The notes beneath the pieces are model-generated. The model did no database searches, was not told the origin of the DNA, and saw only the letters and a program-made list of their open reading frames with translations. Both the position numbers and the translations under genes were made by a program. Positions 1 through 14,379 of a stretch of 44,482 bases of DNA are shown here, in pieces. The DNA is from Nitrosomonas sp. (lineage in GTDB: Bacteria > Pseudomonadota > Gammaproteobacteria > Burkholderiales > Nitrosomonadaceae), in the NCBI GenBank assembly GCA_024281695.1, contig JAMXAE010000005.1, positions 1 to 44,482 of the forward strand. The letters run 5' to 3'. Each line of letters begins with the position of its first letter. Within the stretch, counting starts at the first letter, position 1.

Positions 1-46
1 CCCGGGAGATTAAGCGTAATGTGCTCGAAGTACATTACAATCCCGG
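1..46 (+). promoter_or_regulatory. 3' end of a probable guanidine-I (ykkC) riboswitch with expression platform
   Basis: The window opens with CCCGGGAGA, which matches the strongly conserved 3' end of guanidine-I riboswitches as I remember it (AAAAGCCCGGGAGA). The rest of the aptamer lies outside the window. Bases 2-7 (CCGGGA) are perfectly complementary to bases 41-46 (TCCCGG), and between them bases 16-24 pair with 30-38 (nine pairs, one wobble, loop TCGAA). This gives a structure that would compete with the aptamer for its 3' strand, as expected of an ON switch: guanidine binding would free bases 41-46. The T-run after it is weak (CTTTTG), so termination or translation control are both possible. 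The genes downstream fit guanidine metabolism. Confidence 0.6.
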
Positions 47-72: not shown

Positions 73-1509
73 ATGTCAGGTTCAACAAAACAAATCACAT
101 CTTTGCAGGATGCCCATGTAACCGGCGATGCGCTCAATCGCAGCATGAGTGTATGGCACAGTTTTACGCTGGGTTTTGCGGTTGTCTCGCCGGTCGCCGG
201 ATTGTATGCCATTATCGGCGTACAAACTGTCGTCGCCGGTGGCGGCTGGTTTGCAGCATTGGCGGTCTGCTTGCTCATGCAGTTGCTGGTGGCGACTGTT
301 TACGCGGAGTTGTCTTCACAATTTCCGATTGCTGGCGGTGCCTATAAATGGGCGCGGCAGCTCGGTGGCGCCATCGCCGGGCAATATGCAGGCGTCATTT
401 ATATCTGTTCCACCATTGCCATGGTCACCACGACCGCTTATACGGGCGGTTTCTGGCTGGCCACCTTTTGCGGATCATCGGGTGATGGCGGCGTTATGAT
501 GGTACTTTGGGGTGCCATATTTCTGCTGCTTTGCACACTCCTCAATCTGGCCCCGGTCAGTATTTTCAATTTGGTGATCAAACTGGGTGTTTACGCGGAA
601 GTCGTCGGATCATTCGGCGTAGCGCTGTTGTTATTTCTTTTCTTCCGTCAGCACCCTGTCATGGAATTGTTTCAGCACATGGGTAGCGGAACAGCGCCCA
701 GTGAAATGGCTGCTTTCCTCGCGGCACTGGCCATTGCCGGCTGGGCTTTTATCGGTTTTGATGCCTGTTCCACCACTGCGGAAGAAACCCAGCAACCGAA
801 GCGCATGGTTCCCCGTGCCATTTTCATGTCGCTGCTGGTGGTCGGCACAGTGGTTTTATTTAATTCAGCCGCGCTGATTCTGGCTTTTGAGCATGACACA
901 TTGCGACACTCCAGCCATACTTCCGATCCGGTCACACCACTCATTGCCAGTAGCATCGGCGATTGGTTTGAACAACCCTTTCTGGCGATTGTAATGACGG
1001 CTTTTTTAGCCTGCGGCGCATCGATGGTCAAATACACCTCGCGCATTGTTTTTTCCATGGCACGGGAAGGCAATATGCCAGCGGTGTTGAGTCAGGTAAC
1101 TGCGAGTAAAACACCGCGTAATGCGGTTCTCTTTCCCGTTCTGCTGGCAGGTTGCGGATTGATCTTCGGGCTCAATGACGATGCCGTGGCTACCATCATC
1201 GCTTTCGGTACCGGCGGTTTATACGCCATGTTCACGTTCACGACTGGATTTGCCTTGTTTGCCCGGCTCACCGGGCGGTGGAATCCTCAACTTGGCGAAT
1301 TAAAGCTGGGCACATGGGGATTGGTCATCAACATTTTGGCATTCATTTGGTCATTGTTTGAGGTCATCAATATCGCCTGGCCCCGCCCGTATGCCATTTC
1401 AGCCGATGCGCCGTGGTGGCAATTATGGGCAACGCCACTGGTACTCGGCAGTATTCTGACCATCACCACACTATATATCCTTTGCAAGAGATGGATTAGC
1501 ACTAAGTAA
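73..1509 (+). CDS. APC-superfamily permease of the urea/guanidine carboxylase operon
   Basis: This is a polytopic inner-membrane transporter of about 478 residues with around 12 hydrophobic segments. It has the amino-acid/polyamine/organocation (APC) pattern, with an early SVWHSFTLGFAVVSPVAGLY segment and the conserved GGAYKWA motif after the second helix. I chose the ATG at 73 because GGAG lies seven bases upstream. The ATG at 19 has no ribosome site and sits inside the leader hairpin. It is the first gene of the carboxylase operon and is probably the importer of the nitrogen substrate (guanidine, urea or a related cation). Many guanidine operons carry an ABC importer instead. Substrate is inferred from context only. 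Confidence 0.85.
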   Translation: MSGSTKQITSLQDAHVTGDALNRSMSVWHSFTLGFAVVSPVAGLYAIIGVQTVVAGGGWFAALAVCLLMQLLVATVYAELSSQFPIAGGAYKWARQLGGAIAGQYAGVIYICSTIAMVTTTAYTGGFWLATFCGSSGDGGVMMVLWGAIFLLLCTLLNLAPVSIFNLVIKLGVYAEVVGSFGVALLLFLFFRQHPVMELFQHMGSGTAPSEMAAFLAALAIAGWAFIGFDACSTTAEETQQPKRMVPRAIFMSLLVVGTVVLFNSAALILAFEHDTLRHSSHTSDPVTPLIASSIGDWFEQPFLAIVMTAFLACGASMVKYTSRIVFSMAREGNMPAVLSQVTASKTPRNAVLFPVLLAGCGLIFGLNDDAVATIIAFGTGGLYAMFTFTTGFALFARLTGRWNPQLGELKLGTWGLVINILAFIWSLFEVINIAWPRPYAISADAPWWQLWATPLVLGSILTITTLYILCKRWISTK

Positions 1510-1533
1510 AATTGCATTAACAAGGAGCTCATC

Positions 1534-2262
1534 ATGAATCAACAAGAAATCATCTGGAAACAATCCATACCCGGTGGATGCCACTGGTCCGGCATCCTGC
1601 GCCGCGGCACCATGTTACGTCTAACCGATGTACAGGGCGGTGCAAATGCGGCTGTTTTGTTCTTTAATCAGGAAGAAAAACTCGAGCGCTACAATATGGC
1701 CGACACATTGAAATCGCAGCACACATTCCGCTTGACTAAAGGACATGCTTGCCATTCCGATATGGGGCGGATTTTTTGTTGTATCACGGCGGATACCGCC
1801 GGTTGGAACGATACCGTATGCGGCTTGAGTGACGCTCAATTAATACAGCAAAAATATGGCATTGCACGCTATCAGGAACATCGCAATCAAATGTTCCGCA
1901 GTGGCCTGGATGGCATGCTGATCGAACTGGGTAAATGGGGATTAGGCATGCGTGACATTGTTTCCAATATCAATTTTTTCAGCAAAGTCACTGCCGATGC
2001 GAACGGTGAATTGACATTTCATGCCGGCAATAGCCAGGCAGGCGATCATGTTGATCTGAGCTTTGAGATGGATACCTTGGTCATCCTCTCGGCTGCACCG
2101 CATCCACTCGATACAAAGCCTACTTACCAACCCGGCGCTGTGGACTTGGCGGCATTTGTGACACCCGCCGCAGCGGCCTCAGCATGTCAACAGATTGCCG
2201 AGAATGTCAGAGGATTACACAATACCTATCGGTTCTATCACCCCTGTGGAGGTGCGCAATGA
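1534..2262 (+). CDS. DUF1989 protein, UAAP1 type; probable carboxyguanidine deiminase subunit
   Basis: A 242-residue protein of the DUF1989 family, of the kind long annotated as urea amidolyase/carboxylase-associated protein 1. It shows the family blocks GGCHWSGILRRG near the N terminus, LERYNMADTLKSQHT, and GHACHSDMGR followed by a TADTAGWNDT block; Cys and His in these may bind metal. Proteins of this pair have been shown to form a heteromeric carboxyguanidine deiminase (CgdAB) that converts carboxyguanidine to allophanate and releases ammonia. AAGGAG precedes the ATG by eight bases. Its TGA overlaps the ATG of the next gene (ATGA), as expected for two subunits made together. Which subunit name applies is not decided here. 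Confidence 0.85.
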   Translation: MNQQEIIWKQSIPGGCHWSGILRRGTMLRLTDVQGGANAAVLFFNQEEKLERYNMADTLKSQHTFRLTKGHACHSDMGRIFCCITADTAGWNDTVCGLSDAQLIQQKYGIARYQEHRNQMFRSGLDGMLIELGKWGLGMRDIVSNINFFSKVTADANGELTFHAGNSQAGDHVDLSFEMDTLVILSAAPHPLDTKPTYQPGAVDLAAFVTPAAAASACQQIAENVRGLHNTYRFYHPCGGAQ

Positions 2263-2924
2263 ACACGCCAGCATTGGTAGCCAGCAAACTCAACCCTGAT
2301 CTCGCCGTAGTCGATGAAATTTGTGCGGCCGGAGAACCCTGGGTTGGAATCGTCAAGCAAGGGCAAATTTTCCGTATCGTTGACTTGGAAGGCAATCAAG
2401 CCGTCGACACACTATTTTTCAATCTCGGTCACGCCTTAGAACGTTATAGCGCCACCGATACCATTCGCGCTCAGAATAAGTTGTATCTGACCACCGGTAG
2501 CAAGCTTTGCTCCAATTTTGGCAATACCATGCTCGTAATTGTCGCAGACACTTGTGGACGCCATGACACATTGGGCGGTGCCTGTGCGGCGGAAAGTAAC
2601 ACGGTACGCTATGCGCTGGAAAAATATCCAATGCACAGTTGTCGAGACAATTTTCTGCATGCACTGGCCCATGAAACAGTTTGCGAACAGCTGAATATGA
2701 GCAAGCGCGATCTACCAAGCAATATCAATTTTTTCATGAATGTCCCGGTCACCGAAGCAGGTGGATTAGAATTTGTCGATGGCGTCTCGGCACCGGGGAA
2801 ATACGTCGAAATGCAGGCTGAAATGGATGTATTGGTATTAATCTCGAATTGTCCGCAACTCAACAATCCGTGCAATGCCTATAATCCGACACCGATCCGA
2901 TTATTGATCTGGGATTCCCAATAA
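2259..2924 (+). CDS. DUF1989 protein, UAAP2 type; probable second carboxyguanidine deiminase subunit
   Basis: A 221-residue paralogue of the preceding gene with the same fold blocks (DLEGNQAVDTLFFN, LERYSATDTIRAQN, ADTCGRHDTLGG, LPSNINFFMNV). The start at 2259 has GGAGG at 2248-2252 and overlaps the previous stop by four bases, so translation is coupled; a longer in-frame start at 2184 lies inside the previous gene and is unlikely. Tandem DUF1989 genes immediately before a biotin-dependent carboxylase are the signature of the carboxyguanidine deiminase (CgdAB) pair. The predicted reaction is carboxyguanidine plus water to allophanate plus ammonia, in the cytoplasm. Confidence 0.85.
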   Translation: MNTPALVASKLNPDLAVVDEICAAGEPWVGIVKQGQIFRIVDLEGNQAVDTLFFNLGHALERYSATDTIRAQNKLYLTTGSKLCSNFGNTMLVIVADTCGRHDTLGGACAAESNTVRYALEKYPMHSCRDNFLHALAHETVCEQLNMSKRDLPSNINFFMNVPVTEAGGLEFVDGVSAPGKYVEMQAEMDVLVLISNCPQLNNPCNAYNPTPIRLLIWDSQ

Positions 2925-2968
2925 CCGATAAATCCAATTGATGATTCATCAAGAAAAAGGATAACGCT

Positions 2969-5900
2969 ATGTTCGATAAAGTCTTAATTGCCAATCGCGG
3001 CGCTATTGCTTGCCGGATTATCCGCACCCTGCGCCGCATGCATGTCAGAAGTGTCGCCGTTTATACCGAAGCCGACGCGTTATCGCGCCATGTCACCGAA
3101 GCCGATGAAGCTTACTGCATTGGTAGCGGACTCGCTGCGGAAAGTTATTTGCGTACCGATAAAATCTTGGAAATCGCTCAGCAAAGCGGCGCGCAAGCGA
3201 TTCATCCCGGCTATGGCTTTCTCAGCGAGAAAGCCGATTTTGCCGAGCAATGCGCCGCGCATGGCATTTGTTTTATCGGCCCTACTCCGAGCCAAATGCG
3301 CGCGTTTGGTTTAAAGCACACGGCACGCACCTTGGCATTGGAAAACCGGGTACCGCTCCTGCCAGGAACCGGTTTGCTGGAAAACCTTGAAGCGGCTTGT
3401 CATCAGGCTAAACACATCGGCTATCCGGTCATGCTGAAAAGTACCGCCGGCGGCGGCGGCATCGGCATGCGCTTGTGCTGGAACCAAGATGAATTGGTCG
3501 GCGCCTACGAATCGGTCAAAACATTGGCACAAAACAATTTCAAAGATGCCGGTCTATTTCTGGAAAAATTTGTCGACCGGGCGCGCCATATCGAAGTACA
3601 AATTTTCGGTGACGGCAAAGGCCAGGTCGTCGCACTGGGTGAGCGTGACTGTTCCATGCAGCGACGCAACCAAAAAGTCATCGAGGAAACACCCGCTCCC
3701 AACCTTCCGCCGCATTTGCGCCAGGCGCTGCTGGATACGGCGGTACGCCTTGGCAAAGCCATCAGCTATCAGTCTGCCGGCACGGTTGAATATATTTTTG
3801 ATGCCGCCAATGGTCAATTTTATTTTCTCGAAGTCAACACACGCCTGCAGGTTGAACATGGTATAACTGAGGAAGTCACCGGTATTGATCTGGTGGAATG
3901 GATGGTCCGGCAAGCAGCGGGGGATCTTCCTTCACTCGACTCTTTCACGATCAAACCTACTGGTGCTTCGATTCAGGTACGGGTGTATGCCGAAAATCCT
4001 GCCAAAGATTTCCAGCCTTCCAGCGGCATATTGACTTCAGCGGACTTTTCTACAGCGGCACGTGTGGAAACTTGGGTGGAGCGCGGCATTGAAGTATCCG
4101 CATTTTATGATCCGATGCTGGCAAAAATCATTGTACATGCACCTGATCGCGACACAGCAATCACCAAGCTGCTGGGCGCACTGGATGATACGTCATTGCA
4201 GGGAATCGAAACCAACCTGGCGTATCTCAAGCAAATTCTGTACAGCACCGTGTTTCGCAGCGGAGAATTGTATACGCAATTCCTCAATGGATTTCATTAT
4301 CAGCCGCACAGTATCGATGTTCTAAATGCAGGCGTACAAACCTCGATACAGGATTATCCCGGGCGGATCGGTTACTGGAACGTCGGCGTTCCGCCTTCCG
4401 GACCGATGGATAGTTTGGCTTTTCGTCTTGCTAACCGGCTGGTCAACAATCCTGAAGATAGCGCCGGACTGGAAATCACGCTGGCAGGCCCGACGTTGCG
4501 TTTTAATTGCGACAGCATCATCGCCATCTGTAGTGCGCCTATCGATGTGTCGCTGGATGGTGAACCGCTGCCACTATGGCAATCCCATTCCATCAAAGCC
4601 GGTGCGCTCGTGCAATTTGGCAAAATCCAGCAATCCGGCAGCCGGGTTTATCTGGCCGTATACGGTGGTTTTCAAGTACCTGATTATCTGGGTAGCAAAT
4701 CCACCTTTACGTTAGGCCAATTTGGCGGACATGCCGGACGCGTGCTGCGTGCCGGTGATGTCTTGCATGTGCAACCGCTGCCGTCTTCTCAACCGGCGCC
4801 ACAACACTTGCCTCAACCATGGGTGCCGCTTTATACAAATCGCTGGGAAATCGCCGTATTGTACGGCCCTCACGGCGCACCGGATTTCTTTACCGAAGCG
4901 GACATTAAACAGTTTTTTGCCGCCGAGTGGAAGGTACATCATAATTCCAGCCGCACCGGCGTGCGGCTGATCGGTCCCAAGCCGCAATGGGCGCGTAGCG
5001 ATGGTGGCGAAGCCGGCCTGCATCCTTCCAATATCCACGACAATGCCTACGCCATCGGCGCAGTCGATTTTACCGGCGATATGCCGATTATCCTGGGCCC
5101 TGATGGCCCCAGCCTGGGAGGTTTCGTTTGCCCGGTCACCATCGTCCAGGCGGAATTGTGGAAAACCGGGCAACTCAAACCCGGCGACAGCATCCGCTTT
5201 TATCCGGTATCAATGGAACAAGCGCTCGTATTGGAACAACAGCAAAACCAACTGATTCAGCATCTTCATGCGAGTGCAAGTGTACCGATAGTTTCTCGAT
5301 CCGAAAAACCGGTCAGCCCCATTCTGCACTACATTCCGAAGACCACAGCACAAGTGCAAGTCACTTATCGTCAATCCGGCGATAAATACCTGTTGATCGA
5401 ATATGGGTCACCGGTACTCGATCTGAATTTGCGCTTTCGTACGCATGCTTTGATGACCTGGCTTCAGCAACGCATCGAAACCAGGGAGCTGGCTGGAATT
5501 CTGGATCTGACACCTGGTATTCGTTCGCTGCAGATTCATTTTGACTCAAGCCAACTGGCACGCGAAAAATTACTGGCGCTTCTGATCACGGGCGAAAACC
5601 AATTGCCTGCGATTGATAACATGGAAGTACCGTCTCGTATCATCCACTTGCCTTTATCCTGGGATGATGCGGCCACGCGACTCGCCATCGAAAAATACAC
5701 GCAATCGGTACGCAGCGACGCGCCCTGGTGCCCAAGCAATATTGAATTTATCCGTCGCATTAACGGGCTGGAAAGCATAGAAGATGTTCAACATATTGTA
5801 TTTGCAGCCAGTTATCTGGTCATGGGACTAGGCGATGTCTATTTGGGTGCGCCCGTAGCCACGCCGCTGGATCCGCGTCACCGTCTTGTCACGACCAAAT

Positions 5901-6592
5901 ACAATCCGGCACGCACTTGGACGCCTGAAAATGCCGTCGGCATTGGTGGGGCGTATTTATGCGTGTATGGTATGGAAGGCCCTGGCGGTTATCAATTTGT
6001 CGGACGTACAATCCCCATGTGGAACCGCTACCGTCAAACCGCTGACTTCAAGGAAGGTAAACCTTGGTTATTGCGTTTCTTTGATCAAATCCGTTTTTAT
6101 CCTGTCAGTGAAAGCGAATTGCTCAAGCTGCGTAAGGATTTCATCAGTGGACACTTCAAACTGCGCACGGAGGAGACAACTCTCAATCTGAAACAGTACA
6201 ATGCCTTCCTGCAACAACATGCCGCCAGCATCAGCACATTCAAAACCCGGCAGCAGACTGCATTTGAAGCCGAACGACAACGTTGGGAAGCCAATGGTCA
6301 ATCGCAGTATGTCAGTGAAGATACGCTCGATGAAGCGGATCCACAGAGTGAGTTGGATTTGCCGGCAGGTGCGCAAGCGATCAGCTCGCAAGTAACCGGC
6401 ACTGTGTGGAAGCTGTTGGTCAAAGAAGGTGAGCAAGTGGAAGCAGGCAAGCCGGTAGTCATGATCGAGTCGATGAAAATGGAATTCCCGGTGGATTCGC
6501 CCGTTACCGGCACAGTGCAGCAGTTATGCTGCAAACAAGGCGGATATGTTTCTGCCGGACAAGTGCTTTTCATCATTCAGGAAAACCAATGA
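2969..6592 (+). CDS. Biotin-dependent guanidine/urea carboxylase
   Basis: A 1207-residue single-chain carboxylase, the normal length for urea carboxylase. Domains in order: biotin carboxylase (about 1-450) with the glycine-rich ATP loop near residues 160-167 and [10 protein letters not shown] at about 288-297; a KipA-like (AHS2) part from about 455 ([19 protein letters not shown]); a KipI-like (AHS1) part from about 800; and a C-terminal biotinyl carrier domain with ESMKMEF, in which Lys1170 is the biotin attachment site. It carboxylates urea to allophanate or guanidine to carboxyguanidine at the cost of ATP. The riboswitch remnant and the two DUF1989 genes favour guanidine. It starts 44 bases after the deiminase and has AAAAAGG upstream. 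No frameshift is visible. Confidence 0.93.
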
Positions 6593-8406
6593 CAACGCAG
6601 AAGCTTCTCCCGCTGGGTGATATACCCTCTGTGCTGCAACGCTACGCCAGCGGTGAGCTATCACCCACTCAAATGGTTGAAGCCATTCATGCCGACATTC
6701 AGAATAATCCCGATCATATTTGGATTTCCGCACTATCACTGGAATCATTGCGAGCCTACGCCGCAAAGTAGAAGCGCAAGACATGACGTCATTGCCGCTG
6801 TATGGCGTGCCTTTCGCCATCAAAGATAGTATCGATCTGGCACAAGTACCCACTACGACAGCCTACCCGGCTTTTGCCTATACGCCATCGCATGGCGCCA
6901 CGGTCGTGCAAAAACTGATCGATGCCGGTGCAATCCCCATCGGCAAAACCAATCTCGACCAGTTCGCCACCGGACTAAATGGCACGCAATCACCTTATGG
7001 TGCGTGCCGCAATGCATTAATCCCGAATATATTTCCGGCGGCTCCAGCTCAGGCTCGGCGGTCGCAGTCACCAAGGGACAGGTATGCTTCAGTCTCGGCA
7101 CCGATACCGCAGGTTCCGGCAGAGTTCCCGCTGCTTTTAATAACCTGGTCGGCTATAAACCCACCAAAGGCTGGTTTTCTGCACAAGGCATGGTACCCGC
7201 CTGCCATTCCCTCGATACGATATCCGTCTTCACCCATACTGCCGCCGATACAGTGCGCATCCTGCCAATCTGCGCCGCTTATGACGCGGCGGATAGCTAT
7301 TCCCGTGAAAGAGAAACGCATGGCTTCGATTTTGGCATAGCACCCCATTTCCGCTTTGCTATTCCGCGCAAACAGCAGCTACAGTTTTTCGGTAATCGCG
7401 AAAGCGAGCGATTATTCAACGAAGTAATAGCTCAGATGCAGAAACTGGGCGGGGAAGCCATTGAAATAGATTTTCAGCCATTCCTCGAAGCCGCCCGCCT
7501 TCTTTATGAAGGTCCTTGGATAGCCGAACGTTATGCGGCCATCCAGTCTTTCTTCGAGCTGCACAGCGATCAGATCATCGCACCGGTACACGAAATCATC
7601 GCGACCGCGAAACAGCGCTCAGCTGCAGATACTTTCAATGGAATCTATCAATTACGCAGAATCAAACAGCAAGCAGACCGGATTTGGACACATGTTGATT
7701 GTTTTCTGACGCCAACTGCCGCCACGATCTATCCCATTCATGCCGTGCAGCAGGATCCCATACGCCTCAATACCAACTTGGGCTATTACACCAATTTCAT
7801 GAATCTGCTTGACTATGCCGCAGTCGCTGTTCCTGCCGGTTTTCAAAGTGATGGACTGCCTTTTGGCATCACGCTGGCAGCAGCGGCCCACCAGGATGAG
7901 CCGCTGCTACATCTTGCGCATCGCCTGCAACAAGTCTATTCACTGCCACTGGGTGCGACCGGCATTGCGTTGCCCCGAAATATCCCCCTCCCTACCACAT
8001 CCCGATCCGGTCAGGTACGGATAGCCGTTTGCGGCGCACATTTGTCCGGTTTGCCGTTGAATGAACAATTAACCAGGCGCCAGGGCCGATTAATCATCAG
8101 CACGACCACTTCACCCGATTACAGGCTCTACGTATTACCGGGAGAACCGCCGCAACGCCCCGGCTTAATTCGAGTTAACAAAAATGAGCAATTGCCATCG
8201 GAGTGGAAATTTGGGAGTTACCGGTACGCGAATTGGGCGGTTTTGTCGCCAATATTCCAGCACCGTTAAGCATCGGCACCATTACTCTGGCAAACGATAA
8301 AACAGTGCAGGGTTTTCTCTGCGAGCGTTACGCTATCGACAATGCAGAAGATATCAGTCATTTGGGTGGATGGCGCAACTACCTGCGGCAGCTGGGTAAT
8401 TCATAA
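6589..8406 (+). pseudogene. atzF: Allophanate hydrolase interrupted by three single-base deletions
   Basis: Together the pieces make a full-length (about 606 residues) allophanate hydrolase: amidase-signature domain with the catalytic Lys in [18 protein letters not shown] and GTDTAGSGR, then the C-terminal domain ending in LGGWRNYL. The reading frame changes three times. Near 6765 AYAAK should run on into VEAQD (AAA, probably AAAA before). Near 7017 the family's [12 protein letters not shown] needs one more T. Near 8203 SEVEIWELP needs one more G. All three are one-base losses at short homopolymers. The ATG at 6589 overlaps the carboxylase stop. An intact enzyme would split allophanate into two ammonia and two CO2. 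As read, no active enzyme can be made; real decay and sequencing error are both possible. Confidence 0.9.
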
Positions 8407-8551: not shown

Positions 8552-9442
8552 ATGATGACTATAAAACCTAAAGCATCATTCAAGAAATTGTTGCGCATCC
8601 AGCAAAATACAAATCAGCATTGGGTTGGTGATGGTTTTCCGGTACGCACACTTTTTTCATATTCAGCCCTGGGACCCATAATCAGTCCCTTTTTGCTATT
8701 CGATTATGCAGGACCGATGGAATTTCCACCGACCGAACAACGCCGCGGCGTGGGCGAGCATCCCCATCGCGGTTTTGAAACCGTCACCATTGTGTATAGC
8801 GGTGAAGTGGAGCACCGTGATAGTTCCGGTAGTGGCGGAAAAATTGGCCCAGGCGATGTGCAATGGATGACGGCAGCTTCCGGTCTAGTTCACGAAGAAT
8901 TCCATAGCCGCGATTTTGCACAACGTGGCGGTGTACTTGAGATAGTGCAACTCTGGGTAAATCTACCCACCAAAGATAAAATGTCACCCCCGCGTTATCA
9001 AAGTATCCTGAATAGTCAGATTCCTGTCGTCCAACTCCCGAACGGTCAAGGAAGTATGCGCGTCATTGCCGGTGAATTCGAGGGAACTGCTGGACCGGCG
9101 CATACCTTTTCGCCGATCAACGTATGGGACTTGCGTTTAAACAACGAACAGCCCATCGACCTAGTTGTGCCAGATGGCTACAACACACTACTGGCAGTGC
9201 TCAAGGGGGCGGTACGCGTCAGTCAATCTGAAACCATTGGTGCAGCAGAAGTTGGTTTGTTTGACAGGGTAGGTAATTATATTCATATCGATAGCGCACC
9301 CAATACAACAGCGTTACTGCTTTGCGGTGAACCAATCGATGAACCCATCGCAGGCAGCGGCCCGTTTGTTATGAACACTGCAGAGGAAATTCGTCAGGCC
9401 ATGGTAGATTACCAGAGTGGCAAGATGGGGAAAATTTCATGA
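8552..9442 (+). CDS. Pirin family protein
   Basis: A 296-residue bicupin of the pirin family. The N-terminal cupin has the metal-site residues in HPHRGFETV, GEVEHRDS and the GDVQWMTAASGLVHEE block; the second half carries the pirin C-terminal cupin. Bacterial pirins bind iron or other metals, and some act as quercetinases or redox sensors; the substrate here is unknown. The ATG at 8552 (or the adjacent one at 8555) follows AAAAGGAG. The 145 bases before it hold no gene and no clear terminator. It starts a same-strand run of four accessory genes, suggesting a shared job in processing a small organic compound. Confidence 0.88.
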   Translation: MMTIKPKASFKKLLRIQQNTNQHWVGDGFPVRTLFSYSALGPIISPFLLFDYAGPMEFPPTEQRRGVGEHPHRGFETVTIVYSGEVEHRDSSGSGGKIGPGDVQWMTAASGLVHEEFHSRDFAQRGGVLEIVQLWVNLPTKDKMSPPRYQSILNSQIPVVQLPNGQGSMRVIAGEFEGTAGPAHTFSPINVWDLRLNNEQPIDLVVPDGYNTLLAVLKGAVRVSQSETIGAAEVGLFDRVGNYIHIDSAPNTTALLLCGEPIDEPIAGSGPFVMNTAEEIRQAMVDYQSGKMGKIS

Positions 9443-9513
9443 GCACTGTGACAGGTTGCTTAGGCAATAGAGTCTGTTAAGTCAATCACCATGTAATTCG
9501 GGAGAAATAAAAA

Positions 9514-9864
9514 ATGACTTTGGAAGAGAAACTCAACGACTTAAATCAAATGATTCTCAAAGGTGAAATACTGGAATCGATGGATAAATATTATCATCCC
9601 GATTGTATCGTGATCGAGAAAAATGATGTGGTGGCACAAGGTTTAAAACAAGCCAAAGACCGGGAATCCGAATTATTCAAAGGTGTTGAAGCCTGGCTTA
9701 AATCGGAAATCATATCGACCGCCGTGGGTGGCAATGTGACGATGACCGAGTGGCATTACGAGTATCAGCACAAAGACTTCGGGCATAAAAAATTCGATCA
9801 GGTGGCGGTACAACACTGGCAAGATGGCAAGATCATCAGCGATCGGTTTTATGCACTGTATTGA
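9514..9864 (+). CDS. SnoaL-like / NTF2-fold protein
   Basis: A small soluble protein of 116 residues with the pattern of SnoaL-like polyketide-cyclase relatives (cone-shaped alpha+beta barrel): an N-terminal helical stretch with MDKYYHPDCIVIEKND, followed by strands ending in QHWQDGKIISDRFYALY, a typical C-terminal block of the fold. No catalytic residue set is recognisable. GGAGAAAT precedes the ATG. It lies 71 bases after pirin and 39 before the isochorismatase gene on the same strand, so it is probably co-transcribed with them. Function unknown; a small-molecule binding or isomerase role would be in keeping with the fold. Confidence 0.75.
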   Translation: MTLEEKLNDLNQMILKGEILESMDKYYHPDCIVIEKNDVVAQGLKQAKDRESELFKGVEAWLKSEIISTAVGGNVTMTEWHYEYQHKDFGHKKFDQVAVQHWQDGKIISDRFYALY

Positions 9865-9903
9865 ACGCCCATTTTATAGTCAACAACCTAAAGGAACCAA
9901 GCT

Positions 9904-10533
9904 ATGAACAAGACTTTCAAATACAACCGCCTCTCCAGGGATGATGCTGTTTTACTTCTGGTAGACCACCAGGCAGGGTTGATCTCGCTGGTACAGGACT
10001 TCTCGCCGAATGAATTCAAAAATAACGTGTTGGCCCTGACAGCGTGCGGCAAGTATTTTCAGCTACCCACCATTCTGACAACCAGTTTCGAGGATGGCCC
10101 GAACGGACCGTTGGTTCCTGAAATCAAAGCAATGTTTCCCGACGCGCCTTACATTGCACGTCCCGGCAACATTAATGCCTGGGACAATAAAGATTTCGTA
10201 AAGGCAATCAAAAAGACCGGCCGCAAGCAGCTCATCATCGCCGGTGTAGTCACCGAAGTCTGCGTCGCCTTTCCAGCACTGTCCGCAATCGAGGCAGGCT
10301 ATGAAGTGTTTGTCGTCACCGATGCCTCCGGCACATTCAATGAAGTGACCCGTGATGCAGCTTGGATGCGAATGCAAGCAGCCGGTGTGCAGATGATGAG
10401 CTGGTTTGGCGTGGCCTGTGAATTGCACCGTGACTGGCGCAACGATGTAGAAGGTCTGGGTGCTTTGTTCTCCACATATCTTCCGAACTACCGGAATCTG
10501 ATGACGAGTTATTTCGCCATCACCAAAAAATAA
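9904..10533 (+). CDS. Isochorismatase-family hydrolase, YcaC-like
   Basis: A 209-residue cysteine hydrolase of the isochorismatase superfamily. The catalytic Asp lies in LLLVDHQAGL and the nucleophilic Cys in GVVTEVCVAFPAL, preceded by the cis-peptide region typical of the family; FNEVTRDAAWMRMQAAGV is characteristic of the YcaC subgroup. Members cleave amides or carbamates, or have unknown substrates. AAGGAACC lies upstream of the ATG. The gene sits between a SnoaL-like gene and a YtcJ-like amidohydrolase, so two hydrolases acting on C-N bonds may work in succession on one nitrogenous compound. That is an inference from context. Confidence 0.87.
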   Translation: MNKTFKYNRLSRDDAVLLLVDHQAGLISLVQDFSPNEFKNNVLALTACGKYFQLPTILTTSFEDGPNGPLVPEIKAMFPDAPYIARPGNINAWDNKDFVKAIKKTGRKQLIIAGVVTEVCVAFPALSAIEAGYEVFVVTDASGTFNEVTRDAAWMRMQAAGVQMMSWFGVACELHRDWRNDVEGLGALFSTYLPNYRNLMTSYFAITKK

Positions 10534-10686
10534 GGCGACATGGAATGCAAGTGACGGATAGTGGTCGCGTTCTACTGAGTATTTTTCTGTACAACATGCT
10601 GAATAGGCACTCCTATCCAACATGAGTGGCTTGTGTTCTTATATTTCCGAAAATGGGTACACTGAACATGCCTAAAGGAGAAAACG

Positions 10687-12543
10687 ATGAGCAGCCCTAG
10701 AATCCAGATGATCCTCCGTAACGGTCAATTCACCACGATGGATCGCCAGAATCCACATGCCGCGACTGTTGCAATCTCCGATGGCCATTTCATCGCCGTG
10801 GGGAACGATGACTCAGTAATGCACCTCGCCGACAGCAGTACGCAAGTAATCGATCTCAATCGCCGCCGTGTCATCCCTGGTCTGATAGACTCACACCTGC
10901 ATTTTATCCGCGGCGAACTCAATTACAACATGGAATTGCGCTGGGATAACATTCCCTCGCTGGCTGATGCCATGCATCGCCTGAAGGAGCAAGTGGCGCG
11001 TACGCCCGCGCCTCAATGGGTACGCATCGTCGGTGGATTCACAGAAATGCAGTTCGTTGAAAAACGCTTGCCGACACTCGAAATTAATGCAGTGGCACCA
11101 GATACACCGGTCTTCATTCTGCATCTTTATGATCGCGCACTGCTCAACCGTGCAGCACTGCGCGCCTGCGGTTACGATCGCGACACACCCAATCCGCCAG
11201 GCGGCCTGATTGCCAAGGATATCCGCGGGGAACCGACAGGCTTACTGCTGGCAGAACCCAATGCATTAATTCTGTATTCAGCGCTCGCCAGAGGCCCGAA
11301 ATTGCCGTATGACTATCAAATCAATTCCACGCGTCACTTCATGCGGGAAATGAATCGCCTGGGAGTGACCAGCGTCATCGATGCCGGCGGCGGCTACCAG
11401 AATTATCCCCATGACTACAAAATCATCGAAGACCTACACAAAGCGGACGAGTTAACTTTACGGATTGCCTACAACCTATTCACTCAAAAGGCAGGAGAAG
11501 AAATTGCTGATTTTTCCAAATGGACCAAAATATTAAAACCTGGTGATGGCGATGGCTATTACCGCCACAATGGTGCAGGCGAAATGCTGGTCTTTTCCGC
11601 CGCTGATTTCGAGGATTTTCGTATGCCACACCCGGATATGGCATCAGGCATGGAGAATGATCTGGAAGCAGTCGTACGCATTCTCGCCAGCAACCGCTGG
11701 CCATTTCGTCTGCATGCCACCTATAATGAAACCATTTCACACGCACTAAATGTATTCGAGAAAGTAAACCGGGATATTTCTTTCGATGGCATGCATTGGT
11801 TTTTTGATCATGCGGAAACTGTAACCGATATCAACCTCGAACGCATTGCCAAATTGGGTGGCGGCATTGCCATACAACATCGCATGGCTTATCAGGGTGA
11901 ATATTTCGTGCAGCGCTACGGCCACAAAGCTGCAGAGCGAACGCCGCCATATCGACGCATTCTGGAAATGGGTGTAAACGTGGGTGCAGGTACCGATGCC
12001 ACCCGAGTTGCTAGTTACGATCCCTGGAATGCGCTCTATTGGTTGATTACGGGCAGAACACTGGGAGGCCTCTCGCTATACCCCAAGACAAACTTGATCA
12101 GTAGAGAAACCGCGCTACGTCTTTATACGCAGGCAAACACCTGGTTCTCGAATGAAGAAGGTGTCAAGGGTCAGATTAAAACGGGGCAATATGCCGATCT
12201 GGCCGTTCTTTCGGCTGATTATTTTAGAATTCCGGAAGATGAAATTCGAAATCTTGTTTCAGTGCTTACAATAGTCGGGGGGCGCATTGTATATGGTAAC
12301 GACGAGTTCAACGCACTTTCTCCATCTTTACCACCAGCCATGCCGGATTGGTCACCTGCGAATTACTTCAGCGGCTATTTCAAAAAAACTGCGGCACATT
12401 CGTTCGCTCAAGCAACCTGTGGATGCGGAATCAGTTGTTCCGTGCATGGCCATGTCCATGGACGTGCATATCAAGCTGCTGTAGACGCGGATGACCAACA
12501 CGGTTTCTGGGGAGTACTCGGCTGTTCTTGTTGGACGGCATGA
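10687..12543 (+). CDS. YtcJ-like metal-dependent amidohydrolase with Cys/His-rich C-terminal tail
   Basis: A 618-residue amidohydrolase-3 family protein. The metal-binding HxH is in VIPGLIDSHLHF near residues 65-72; later family blocks include WFFDHAET and VGAGTDATRVASYDPW, with the Asp that completes the metal site. Family members hydrolyse formamides, imides or exoenzyme-type amide bonds; the substrate is not evident. The last 50 residues are unusual for a plain amidohydrolase: CGCGISC, HGHVHGRAY and GCSCW cluster Cys and His and may bind a second metal. AAAGGAG precedes the ATG. A 153-base gap separates it from the hydrolase upstream. Confidence 0.88.
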   Translation: MSSPRIQMILRNGQFTTMDRQNPHAATVAISDGHFIAVGNDDSVMHLADSSTQVIDLNRRRVIPGLIDSHLHFIRGELNYNMELRWDNIPSLADAMHRLKEQVARTPAPQWVRIVGGFTEMQFVEKRLPTLEINAVAPDTPVFILHLYDRALLNRAALRACGYDRDTPNPPGGLIAKDIRGEPTGLLLAEPNALILYSALARGPKLPYDYQINSTRHFMREMNRLGVTSVIDAGGGYQNYPHDYKIIEDLHKADELTLRIAYNLFTQKAGEEIADFSKWTKILKPGDGDGYYRHNGAGEMLVFSAADFEDFRMPHPDMASGMENDLEAVVRILASNRWPFRLHATYNETISHALNVFEKVNRDISFDGMHWFFDHAETVTDINLERIAKLGGGIAIQHRMAYQGEYFVQRYGHKAAERTPPYRRILEMGVNVGAGTDATRVASYDPWNALYWLITGRTLGGLSLYPKTNLISRETALRLYTQANTWFSNEEGVKGQIKTGQYADLAVLSADYFRIPEDEIRNLVSVLTIVGGRIVYGNDEFNALSPSLPPAMPDWSPANYFSGYFKKTAAHSFAQATCGCGISCSVHGHVHGRAYQAAVDADDQHGFWGVLGCSCWTA

Positions 12544-12990: not shown

Positions 12991-14379
12991 TTAATAATAT
13001 TCTGACCTAGCATAACTTTCAAAACGCGTGTATTCGCCCAGGAAAGTCAAATCAACCTTGCCTATCGGTCCATTCCTTTGTTTACCAATGATAATTTCTG
13101 CAATTCCTTTATCTTGAGAATCCGGGTTATAAACTTCGTCCCTATAGATAAAGAGAATGACGTCAGCATCTTGTTCGATCGCACCCGATTCCCGCAAATC
13201 CGACATGACCGGACGCTTATTAGGGCGCTGTTCAAGACTCCGGTTAAGCTGGGACAATGCAATCACAGGCACTTTAAGTTCCTTTGCTAATCCTTTTAAG
13301 GCGCGCGATATTTCCGAAATTTCAGTGGCACGATTCTCTCCTTGACTGCTAGAAGACATTAACTGCAAATAATCCACAACAATCAAGCCCAATTCACCTT
13401 GCTGACGATACAGCCGTCTAGCCCGTGCTCTCAGTTCCAGCGCATTTAGGGCTGCACTTTCATCGATAAAAATAGGCGCCTCATTGAGCTTGCCTAATGC
13501 ATGGGTCAGTCTAGGCCAGTCCTGGTCGTCAAGACGACCGGTACGAACCTTATGCTGATCCAGCTTGCCGACAGATCCCAGCATTCGCATTGCCAGCTGC
13601 GCGCCACCCATTTCCATACTGAATACGGCAACGGACTTATTCAATTCCAAGGCAACATGTTCTGCAATATTGAGTGAGAAAGCGGTTTTACCCATAGAGG
13701 GTCGACCCGCCACAATGATTAAATCCCCAGGCTGGAATCCGGATGTTTTCTGATCGAGATCGTGAAAACCCGAAGCAATACCGGTCACATTACTTGGATT
13801 ATCTTGGCTATAGAGTAATTCTATTCTTTCAACTACTTGTTTCAAAAGTGGTTGAATATCGATAAACCCTTCTTTACCTCGAGCGCCTTCCTCCGCAATT
13901 TCAAAAACTTTTGCTTCTGCTTCATCTAGTAAATTGGCCGCCGAGCGCCCAGCCGGATTATAGGCGGAATCCGTTATCTGCACGCCAATTTGTGCCAAAT
14001 TACGCATAATTGAGCGTTCACGAACAATTTCCGCGTAGCGTTTTATATTAGCTGCAGACGGAGTATTTTGTACGATAGCTCCTATGTAGGCCAGCCCACC
14101 AATATTTTGCAACTCTGCTGATATTTCCAAAGACTCAGCAACCGTAACTACATCAGCCGGTTTGTTATGCTCTATCAGTTTACAAATATGATGATATATC
14201 AGACGATGATCCTGCCGATAGAAATCGCTATCTGTAATAATATCAGCGACTTTCTCCCAAGCATTGTTATCCAACATCAATCCGCCTAAGACAGATTGCT
14301 CACTTTCAATCGAATGTGGCGGAGTTTTGTAGGAATCTACCAGCTGATCTTGATTGATGCTAATAGGTGATTGCGCCAT
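12991..14379 (-). CDS. dnaB: Replicative DNA helicase DnaB
   Basis: A 462-residue DnaB of normal length. The N-terminal domain begins PPHSIESEQSVLGGLMLDN (about 20-38); the RecA-like domain has Walker A GRPSMGKT at 225-232, a Walker B-type block LGLIVVDYLQLM, and the DLRESGAIEQDADVI and IIGKQRNGP motifs near the end. The hexamer unwinds DNA at the fork and recruits primase. It is the last gene of the rpsF-priB-rpsR-rplI-dnaB block but is separated from rplI by 117 bases that hold a strong hairpin terminator, so it is likely to have reduced read-through or its own promoter. Confidence 0.98.
   Translation of the reverse strand: MAQSPISINQDQLVDSYKTPPHSIESEQSVLGGLMLDNNAWEKVADIITDSDFYRQDHRLIYHHICKLIEHNKPADVVTVAESLEISAELQNIGGLAYIGAIVQNTPSAANIKRYAEIVRERSIMRNLAQIGVQITDSAYNPAGRSAANLLDEAEAKVFEIAEEGARGKEGFIDIQPLLKQVVERIELLYSQDNPSNVTGIASGFHDLDQKTSGFQPGDLIIVAGRPSMGKTAFSLNIAEHVALELNKSVAVFSMEMGGAQLAMRMLGSVGKLDQHKVRTGRLDDQDWPRLTHALGKLNEAPIFIDESAALNALELRARARRLYRQQGELGLIVVDYLQLMSSSSQGENRATEISEISRALKGLAKELKVPVIALSQLNRSLEQRPNKRPVMSDLRESGAIEQDADVILFIYRDEVYNPDSQDKGIAEIIIGKQRNGPIGKVDLTFLGEYTRFESYARSEYY

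Follow-up and report, generated by a model that had tools for sequence, protein, structure and literature searches.

The window analysed here, a stretch of 44,482 nucleotides from a Nitrosomonas sp. bin (assembly GCA_024281695.1, contig JAMXAE010000005.1), begins with a predicted guanidine operon whose last gene, for allophanate hydrolase (AH), is a pseudogene in the assembly. We consider it likely that this is a riboswitch-controlled Nitrosomonas operon for guanidine uptake and breakdown that now lacks its last enzyme, and that guanidine would end, via allophanate, as urea. The window was taken as the whole contig (C191), its start being given by the contig numbering and its end assumed, and the source bin measures 3.0 Mb in 229 contigs, with 89.7% completeness and 6.7% contamination. 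An earlier interpretation made from the letters alone (hereafter, the sequence-only reading) had placed a permease, two DUF1989 genes, a carboxylase and an AH on the forward strand between 73 and 8406; all five loci are present at these positions, but that reading had missed that the gene at the AH locus is no longer open.

Results

Compared with the 606-residue AH of Nitrosomonas sp. Nm84, the AH locus (6589..8406, + strand), which overlaps the carboxylase gene by ATGA, falls into four pieces distributed over three frames (1, 3, 2 and 1, in order) and spanning 6589–6771, ~6761–7018, ~7019–8191 (in a frame open to 8269) and ~8192–8406. DNA alignment with Nm84, Nm132 and Nm33 placed three deletions, two of a single base (after 6760 and after 7018) and one of 4 bases (after 8191), the last of which is not a homopolymer slip given its size, and the first in-frame stop (6769–6771) comes after 60 codons. 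Amidase catalysis relies on two serines and a lysine, and since the lysine and the serines lie in different pieces, re-initiation of translation would not rescue the enzyme. The pieces are still 80–86% identical to Nm84; the break probably happened recently. Frameshift noise across the contig as a whole was rejected, since the breaks are confined to AH and the 42 other genes compared (43 with AH) each stand in one frame; this comparison matched 84 of 104 open frames from relatives, in some genes over part of their length, and covered 35.5 kb outside AH. No second AH was found in the bin: apart from the AH pieces, TIGR02713 matched (at 1e-20) a single protein, of GatA length and on a different contig.

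The intact part of the operon points to guanidine. In the carboxylase (2969..6592, + strand; 1207 aa), Asp700 aligns with Asn1330, and Asp956 with Asp1584, of the K. lactis urea amidolyase (chains 3va7/5i8i). A review passage assigns Asp at the first position to guanidine carboxylases and Asn to urea carboxylases (PMC12186494), and the main text of a published survey calls guanidine carboxylases by these two positions (Palatinszky et al. 2024, PMC11410670). Both Asp were present in 87 of 87 carboxylase rows compared, which had been selected for their similarity to the window and therefore leave K. lactis as the sole Asn control. In addition, the first ten bases of the window (1..10, + strand) agree base for base with the 3′ terminus of the guanidine-I (ykkC) riboswitch aptamer in Nm84, JL21 and ACE_PRO54, and we assign them to the last 10 bases of such an aptamer, cut by the contig start. 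The riboswitch search of the genome found no full riboswitch in the bin itself, because the contig starts inside the aptamer. A scan of 9 Nitrosomonas loci located the full aptamer (Rfam RF00442) ahead of the permease in every one, and of 9 more loci 7 had a full aptamer, L014 and L022 being the exceptions. A guanidine-type rather than a urea-type operon, as the sequence-only reading had proposed, is supported by Asp700 and by the riboswitch, both as the remnant here and as complete aptamers ahead of the permease in relatives; the remnant had been overlooked in that reading.

Upstream of the carboxylase, all on the forward strand, lie an APC-superfamily permease, a predicted guanidine importer (73..1509; PF13520, 117.8 bits; 93% identical to Nm84), and two DUF1989 genes that overlap by ATGA (1534..2262, UAAP1, TIGR03425, 333 bits for a cut-off of 206; 2259..2924, UAAP2, TIGR03424, 337.5 bits for a cut-off of 285; PF09347 in both). 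These adjacent paralogues fall in two subfamilies, one each, and we take them to be CgdA-like and CgdB-like carboxyguanidine deiminase subunits, respectively. The carboxylase matches TIGR02712 over its full length (1960 bits, cut-off 1304), carries biotin carboxylase, carboxyltransferase and biotinyl Pfam domains, and presumably holds its biotin on Lys1170 of an SMKM motif. Much as had been predicted for automatic annotation, NCBIfam gives 'urea' names to 4 of the 5 parts; note that the permease reaches only 165.6 bits against TIGR03428 ('permease, urea carboxylase system'), far below the cut-off of 740.

A survey of 85 Nitrosomonas genomes, this bin included, found the carboxylase in 78 (partial in a few), DUF1989 in 78, the guanidine-I riboswitch in 73 (a lower bound, obtained with stricter filters), ureC in 50 and a full-length AH in 32, with a 33rd cut by a contig end. 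Among the 78 carboxylase-bearing genomes, 31 have a full AH and 47 do not, and those without AH keep DUF1989 in 46 cases and the riboswitch in 41. Seven of these 47 genomes are assembled in no more than 5 contigs with a completeness of 99% or above; thus, poor assembly cannot explain all AH absence. A second set comprised 34 Nitrosomonadaceae or Nitrospira-titled loci (L001-L031, L050, L051 and L054), several of which belong to genomes among the 85, and showed an open AH after the carboxylase in 16 loci and none in 18. Genome-wide searches covered 16 of the latter, leaving out L018 and L051, whose contigs end near the carboxylase, and found no full-length AH in 15 of the 16 assemblies; Nm51 (L030) has its AH in a second operon. 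Strains assigned to genus genomes through coinciding match coordinates include N. europaea, in which neither AH nor ureC was found, N. marina Nm22 and N. oligotropha Nm75, AH-less but with ureC, and Nm84 and N. communis, which bear AH.

A match to the C-terminal part of AH, in genomes with no full AH, was observed in 15 of the 85 genus genomes. The five examined (L083, L084, L085, L091 and L092, from G067, G005, G054, G027 and G016, respectively) sit at unrelated loci, and C-terminal-only matches were consequently rejected as remnants of the operon AH; in the first four, but not in L092, the list of open reading frames shows the match as a separate gene of 124–129 aa without an amidase domain. 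Most other TIGR02713 matches have GatA-like lengths and scores, and we take them to be GatA.

In a carboxylase tree of 43 rows (19 with AH, 21 without and 3 unlabelled), the window is sister to Nm84 (Shimodaira–Hasegawa-like approximate likelihood ratio test, SH-aLRT, 98), and the AH label changes at least 7 times, 5 of these changes being forced by well-supported branches. Shuffled labels required 13.7 changes on average, which means that the trait is also partly inherited. The count was 8 with L022 taken as AH-less and Nm51 left out, and 7 with L012, L020 and L024 also left out. The tree by itself cannot separate gain from loss, and loss is favoured by the AH ruins together with the AH-bearing outgroups: the ruin in G004 misses approximately residues 255–424, and L022, a metagenome-assembled genome (MAG) titled Nitrosospira, holds AH shreds only. 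Judged from these sequences, AH has probably been lost repeatedly.

The genes that remain are under purifying selection in the tested pairs. Across eight AH-less pairs of loci, the ratio of nonsynonymous to synonymous substitution rates (dN/dS) of the four genes permease, cgdA, cgdB and carboxylase lies at 0.03–0.13 where computable; in seven AH-bearing pairs the same genes give 0.02–0.13. One AH-less pair includes Nm51, with its AH elsewhere in the genome, and another the Nitrospira-titled L014; no value was obtained for permease, cgdA and cgdB in L025-L026 and L025-L023, for cgdA and cgdB in L015-L027 and L014-L015, and in two saturated cases. Since the values are similar with and without AH, it appears that the shortened operon is being maintained.

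The bin also encodes a urease operon (ureD, A, B, C, E, F and G) with a urea transporter on contig C217 (L099, 337-6865), all frames being open. Breakage of ureF and ureG was considered and rejected, both being open in one frame only with non-ATG starts. No amo gene was found in the bin, one amo search having matched nothing in its control either; amoB had matches, in part fragmentary ones, in 56 of the 85 genus genomes and none in 29, namely this bin and 28 of the 84 others, several of which are 99–100% complete, so that its absence here says little. The sequence-only reading had called the organism a probable ammonia oxidiser: kinship agrees, since the first 13 carboxylase loci listed (species genomes) are all Nitrosomonas, and in view of the missing amo genes it is on this kinship that ammonia oxidation rests. 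Over the whole carboxylase, the closest among the matches listed is Nm84 (93%).

Downstream of the AH ruin and before a minus-strand gene at 12991, four forward-strand genes (8552..12543) encode a pirin, a 116-aa protein, an isochorismatase-fold protein and an amidohydrolase, with Pfam matches for 3 of the 4. We do not take them to be part of the pathway, because in RBC050 (L011) the carboxylase is directly followed by a relative of the window's minus-strand gene. Compared with the window, the permease of L029 is 94% identical but its carboxylase only 77%, and conversely the carboxylase of L002 is 89% identical but its permease 74%; the two histories seem discordant, which suggests gene replacement inside the operon.

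Several other arrangements were observed. Two Nitrosomonadaceae MAGs, L015 (2021-7329) and L027 (2954-8264), show only riboswitch, permease and carboxylase at the locus, and neither DUF1989 nor a full-length AH was found anywhere in their assemblies. In the N. europaea group (L025, 1-9636; L087, 2329-12292), the system is split in two divergent units, each with its own guanidine-I riboswitch, the one holding a full carboxylase and the other permease-cgdA-cgdB with a carboxyltransferase-biotinyl protein devoid of the biotin carboxylase part; both carboxylase types carry the guanidine-type Asp, and a second, carboxyltransferase-only match occurs in 7 of the 85 genus genomes. Finally, L014, a MAG titled Nitrospira (palsa_1310), has a guanidine carboxylase operon, and in the tree its carboxylase falls among those of Nitrosomonadaceae MAGs, which would reflect either transfer or a binning error; no full-length AH was found in its assembly.

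Discussion

From the gene content, we infer substrates, transport, a non-enzymatic step in vivo and a urea outcome as follows. The permease would probably import guanidine, the carboxylase would convert it to carboxyguanidine at the expense of ATP, and the DUF1989 pair (CgdAB) would deiminate carboxyguanidine to allophanate and one ammonia. Without AH, allophanate would decay chemically to urea and CO2, in line with its published instability in this direction (PMC6219798). The urease of this organism could then release two more ammonia from urea, and strains with neither AH nor urease would be left with urea. The sequence-only reading had expected three ammonia per guanidine from the operon itself, which is not supported since AH is broken and only the intact urease encoded elsewhere could complete the route.

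Extended to the genus, the data can be arranged into a broader scheme that we propose tentatively and with slightly less conviction than doubt: a short guanidine pathway would end at allophanate and thus urea, AH would have been discarded many times independently, and importer, carboxylase and deiminase would have been kept by selection under the guanidine riboswitch. Strains with urease would recover all the nitrogen, and those with neither enzyme would detoxify guanidine to urea released to neighbours; the riboswitch, permease and carboxylase of L015 and L027 would be a still more reduced version. The simplest reading of the factor behind AH loss is a putative one, namely guanidine detoxification with one ammonia gained.

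A number of observations weigh against our main interpretation of the operon. In carboxylase-bearing genomes of 95% completeness or more, urease occurs in 19 of the 27 that have a full AH and in 18 of the 33 that do not (Fisher p 0.29); AH thus does not track urease, whose presence was rejected as a general explanation of AH loss, and 15 of these 33 AH-less genomes have neither AH nor urease. The three deletions are known from the assembly alone, and the completeness and contamination of the bin leave room for an AH elsewhere in the genome. Moreover, relaxed selection on the window AH is suggested, not proven, and weakly so: its dN/dS is 0.130 to Nm84 and 0.122–0.147 to three outgroups, to which Nm84 itself shows 0.084–0.109; on the other hand, pairs of intact AH come near or above these values in three cases, with 0.114 (JL21-KLAP95), 0.138 (Nm34-Nm44) and, for the very close L007-L008, 0.207.

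The explanation that survives best besides our own is that AH activity comes from another gene, located in the tenth of the genome that the bin lacks or encoded by an unrecognised amidase, and that AH-less strains still make three ammonia enzymatically. The incomplete bin, the second operon of Nm51 and the 15 genomes with a match to the AH C-terminal part speak for it. Nevertheless, we regard it as unlikely, given the 15 of 16 assemblies with an AH-less carboxylase locus and no full-length AH genome-wide, the seven AH-less genus genomes of near-complete quality, the unrelated loci of the five C-terminal matches examined (four of them in short genes without an amidase domain) and the GatA-like character of most other TIGR02713 matches.

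It is also quite improbable that sequencing or assembly errors produced the frame breaks and that AH works in an ordinary, complete operon. Such errors would fit a fragmented bin in which the breaks are seen in the assembly only, as well as pieces that remain so similar to Nm84, with a dN/dS mildly raised and within the range of some intact pairs. In contrast, three breaks occur within 1.8 kb and none in the 42 other genes over 35.5 kb; the chance that all three of random errors over 37.3 kb would hit AH is ~1e-4, or 2e-3 for any gene (simple ratio). One deletion removes 4 bases, and other relatives also have a ruined or missing AH at this place.

A decay of the whole guanidine pathway, with AH merely the first gene lost, is very doubtful. 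L015 and L027, with riboswitch, permease and carboxylase and neither DUF1989 nor AH found, would be compatible with it, as would the failure of five strains of ammonia-oxidising bacteria (AOB) on guanidine as sole substrate (main text of PMC11410670); on the other hand, the other genes at AH-less loci are open and under purifying selection, and nearly all AH-less genomes retain DUF1989 (46 of 47) and most the riboswitch (41 of 47). As for a urea carboxylase/allophanate hydrolase (urea amidolyase) operon serving urea use, the NCBIfam names (urea carboxylase, UAAP1, UAAP2 and urea carboxylase system permease) would suggest it, but the idea is barely credible in view of the Asp aligned with K. 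lactis Asn1330, the guanidine-I riboswitch, the separate urease, the Nitrosomonas sp. Is79 result given below (PMC3764937) and a route that needs the very AH that is broken here.

We next compare the operon with published systems. According to the main text of Palatinszky et al. (2024, PMC11410670), 135 of the 145 betaproteobacterial ammonia oxidisers surveyed carry guanidine genes, always those of the carboxylase route, and an APC permease is predicted as the guanidine importer in most of them. The operon as first described in the window is thus not new, and guanidine uptake by its APC permease, which the sequence-only reading had considered new to test, was already predicted. The window shares with the AOB operon of that survey the permease, the deiminase pair, a carboxylase with both signature Asp and, as a remnant of its last 10 bases, a guanidine-I riboswitch, and differs by its AH pseudogene; the survey, in its main text, treats ammonia oxidisers as equipped for three ammonia per guanidine. 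The operons of Pseudomonas and Enterobacteria follow the same path from guanidine via carboxyguanidine to allophanate with the same enzyme families (PMC11410670, PMC12186494), but have an ABC importer, and AH in the route, where the window has an APC permease. Closer relatives delimit the difference further: Nm84 (L013), the nearest one, has the same gene order and a 93% identical carboxylase but an AH in one open frame of 606 aa, and RBC050 has riboswitch-permease-cgdA-cgdB-carboxylase and the same downstream minus-strand gene but neither AH nor the four genes that follow it in the window.

Loss of AH in AOB was not found reported in the passages covered by our literature searches; in the main text of PMC11410670, none of the four mentions of 'allophanate hydrolase' concerns such a loss, and the sole mention of a 'pseudogene' there refers to the permease and guanidinase genes of comammox. 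The same text bears on guanidine as an energy source, which the sequence-only reading had envisaged: none of the five AOB strains tested there, which carry complete gene sets (urease being absent from one), used guanidine by itself; this was seen only in a comammox strain, and three AOB converted some of the guanidine to nitrite, provided that ammonium was present. The explanation adopted here is also favoured by Is79, which has 'urea carboxylase' and AH and no urease and made no nitrite from urea; the authors of PMC3764937 cite this result as unpublished, and in the passage concerned suspect regulation.

Altogether, if AH is missing in over half of the carboxylase-bearing Nitrosomonas genomes, the yield from guanidine would depend on the strain, with either one ammonia plus urea or three ammonia via urease. 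The absence of AH may bear on the poor use of guanidine by ammonia-oxidising bacteria, bearing in mind that the five published test strains had complete sets. If the proposed route is true, guanidine would be a source of urea in nitrifying communities.

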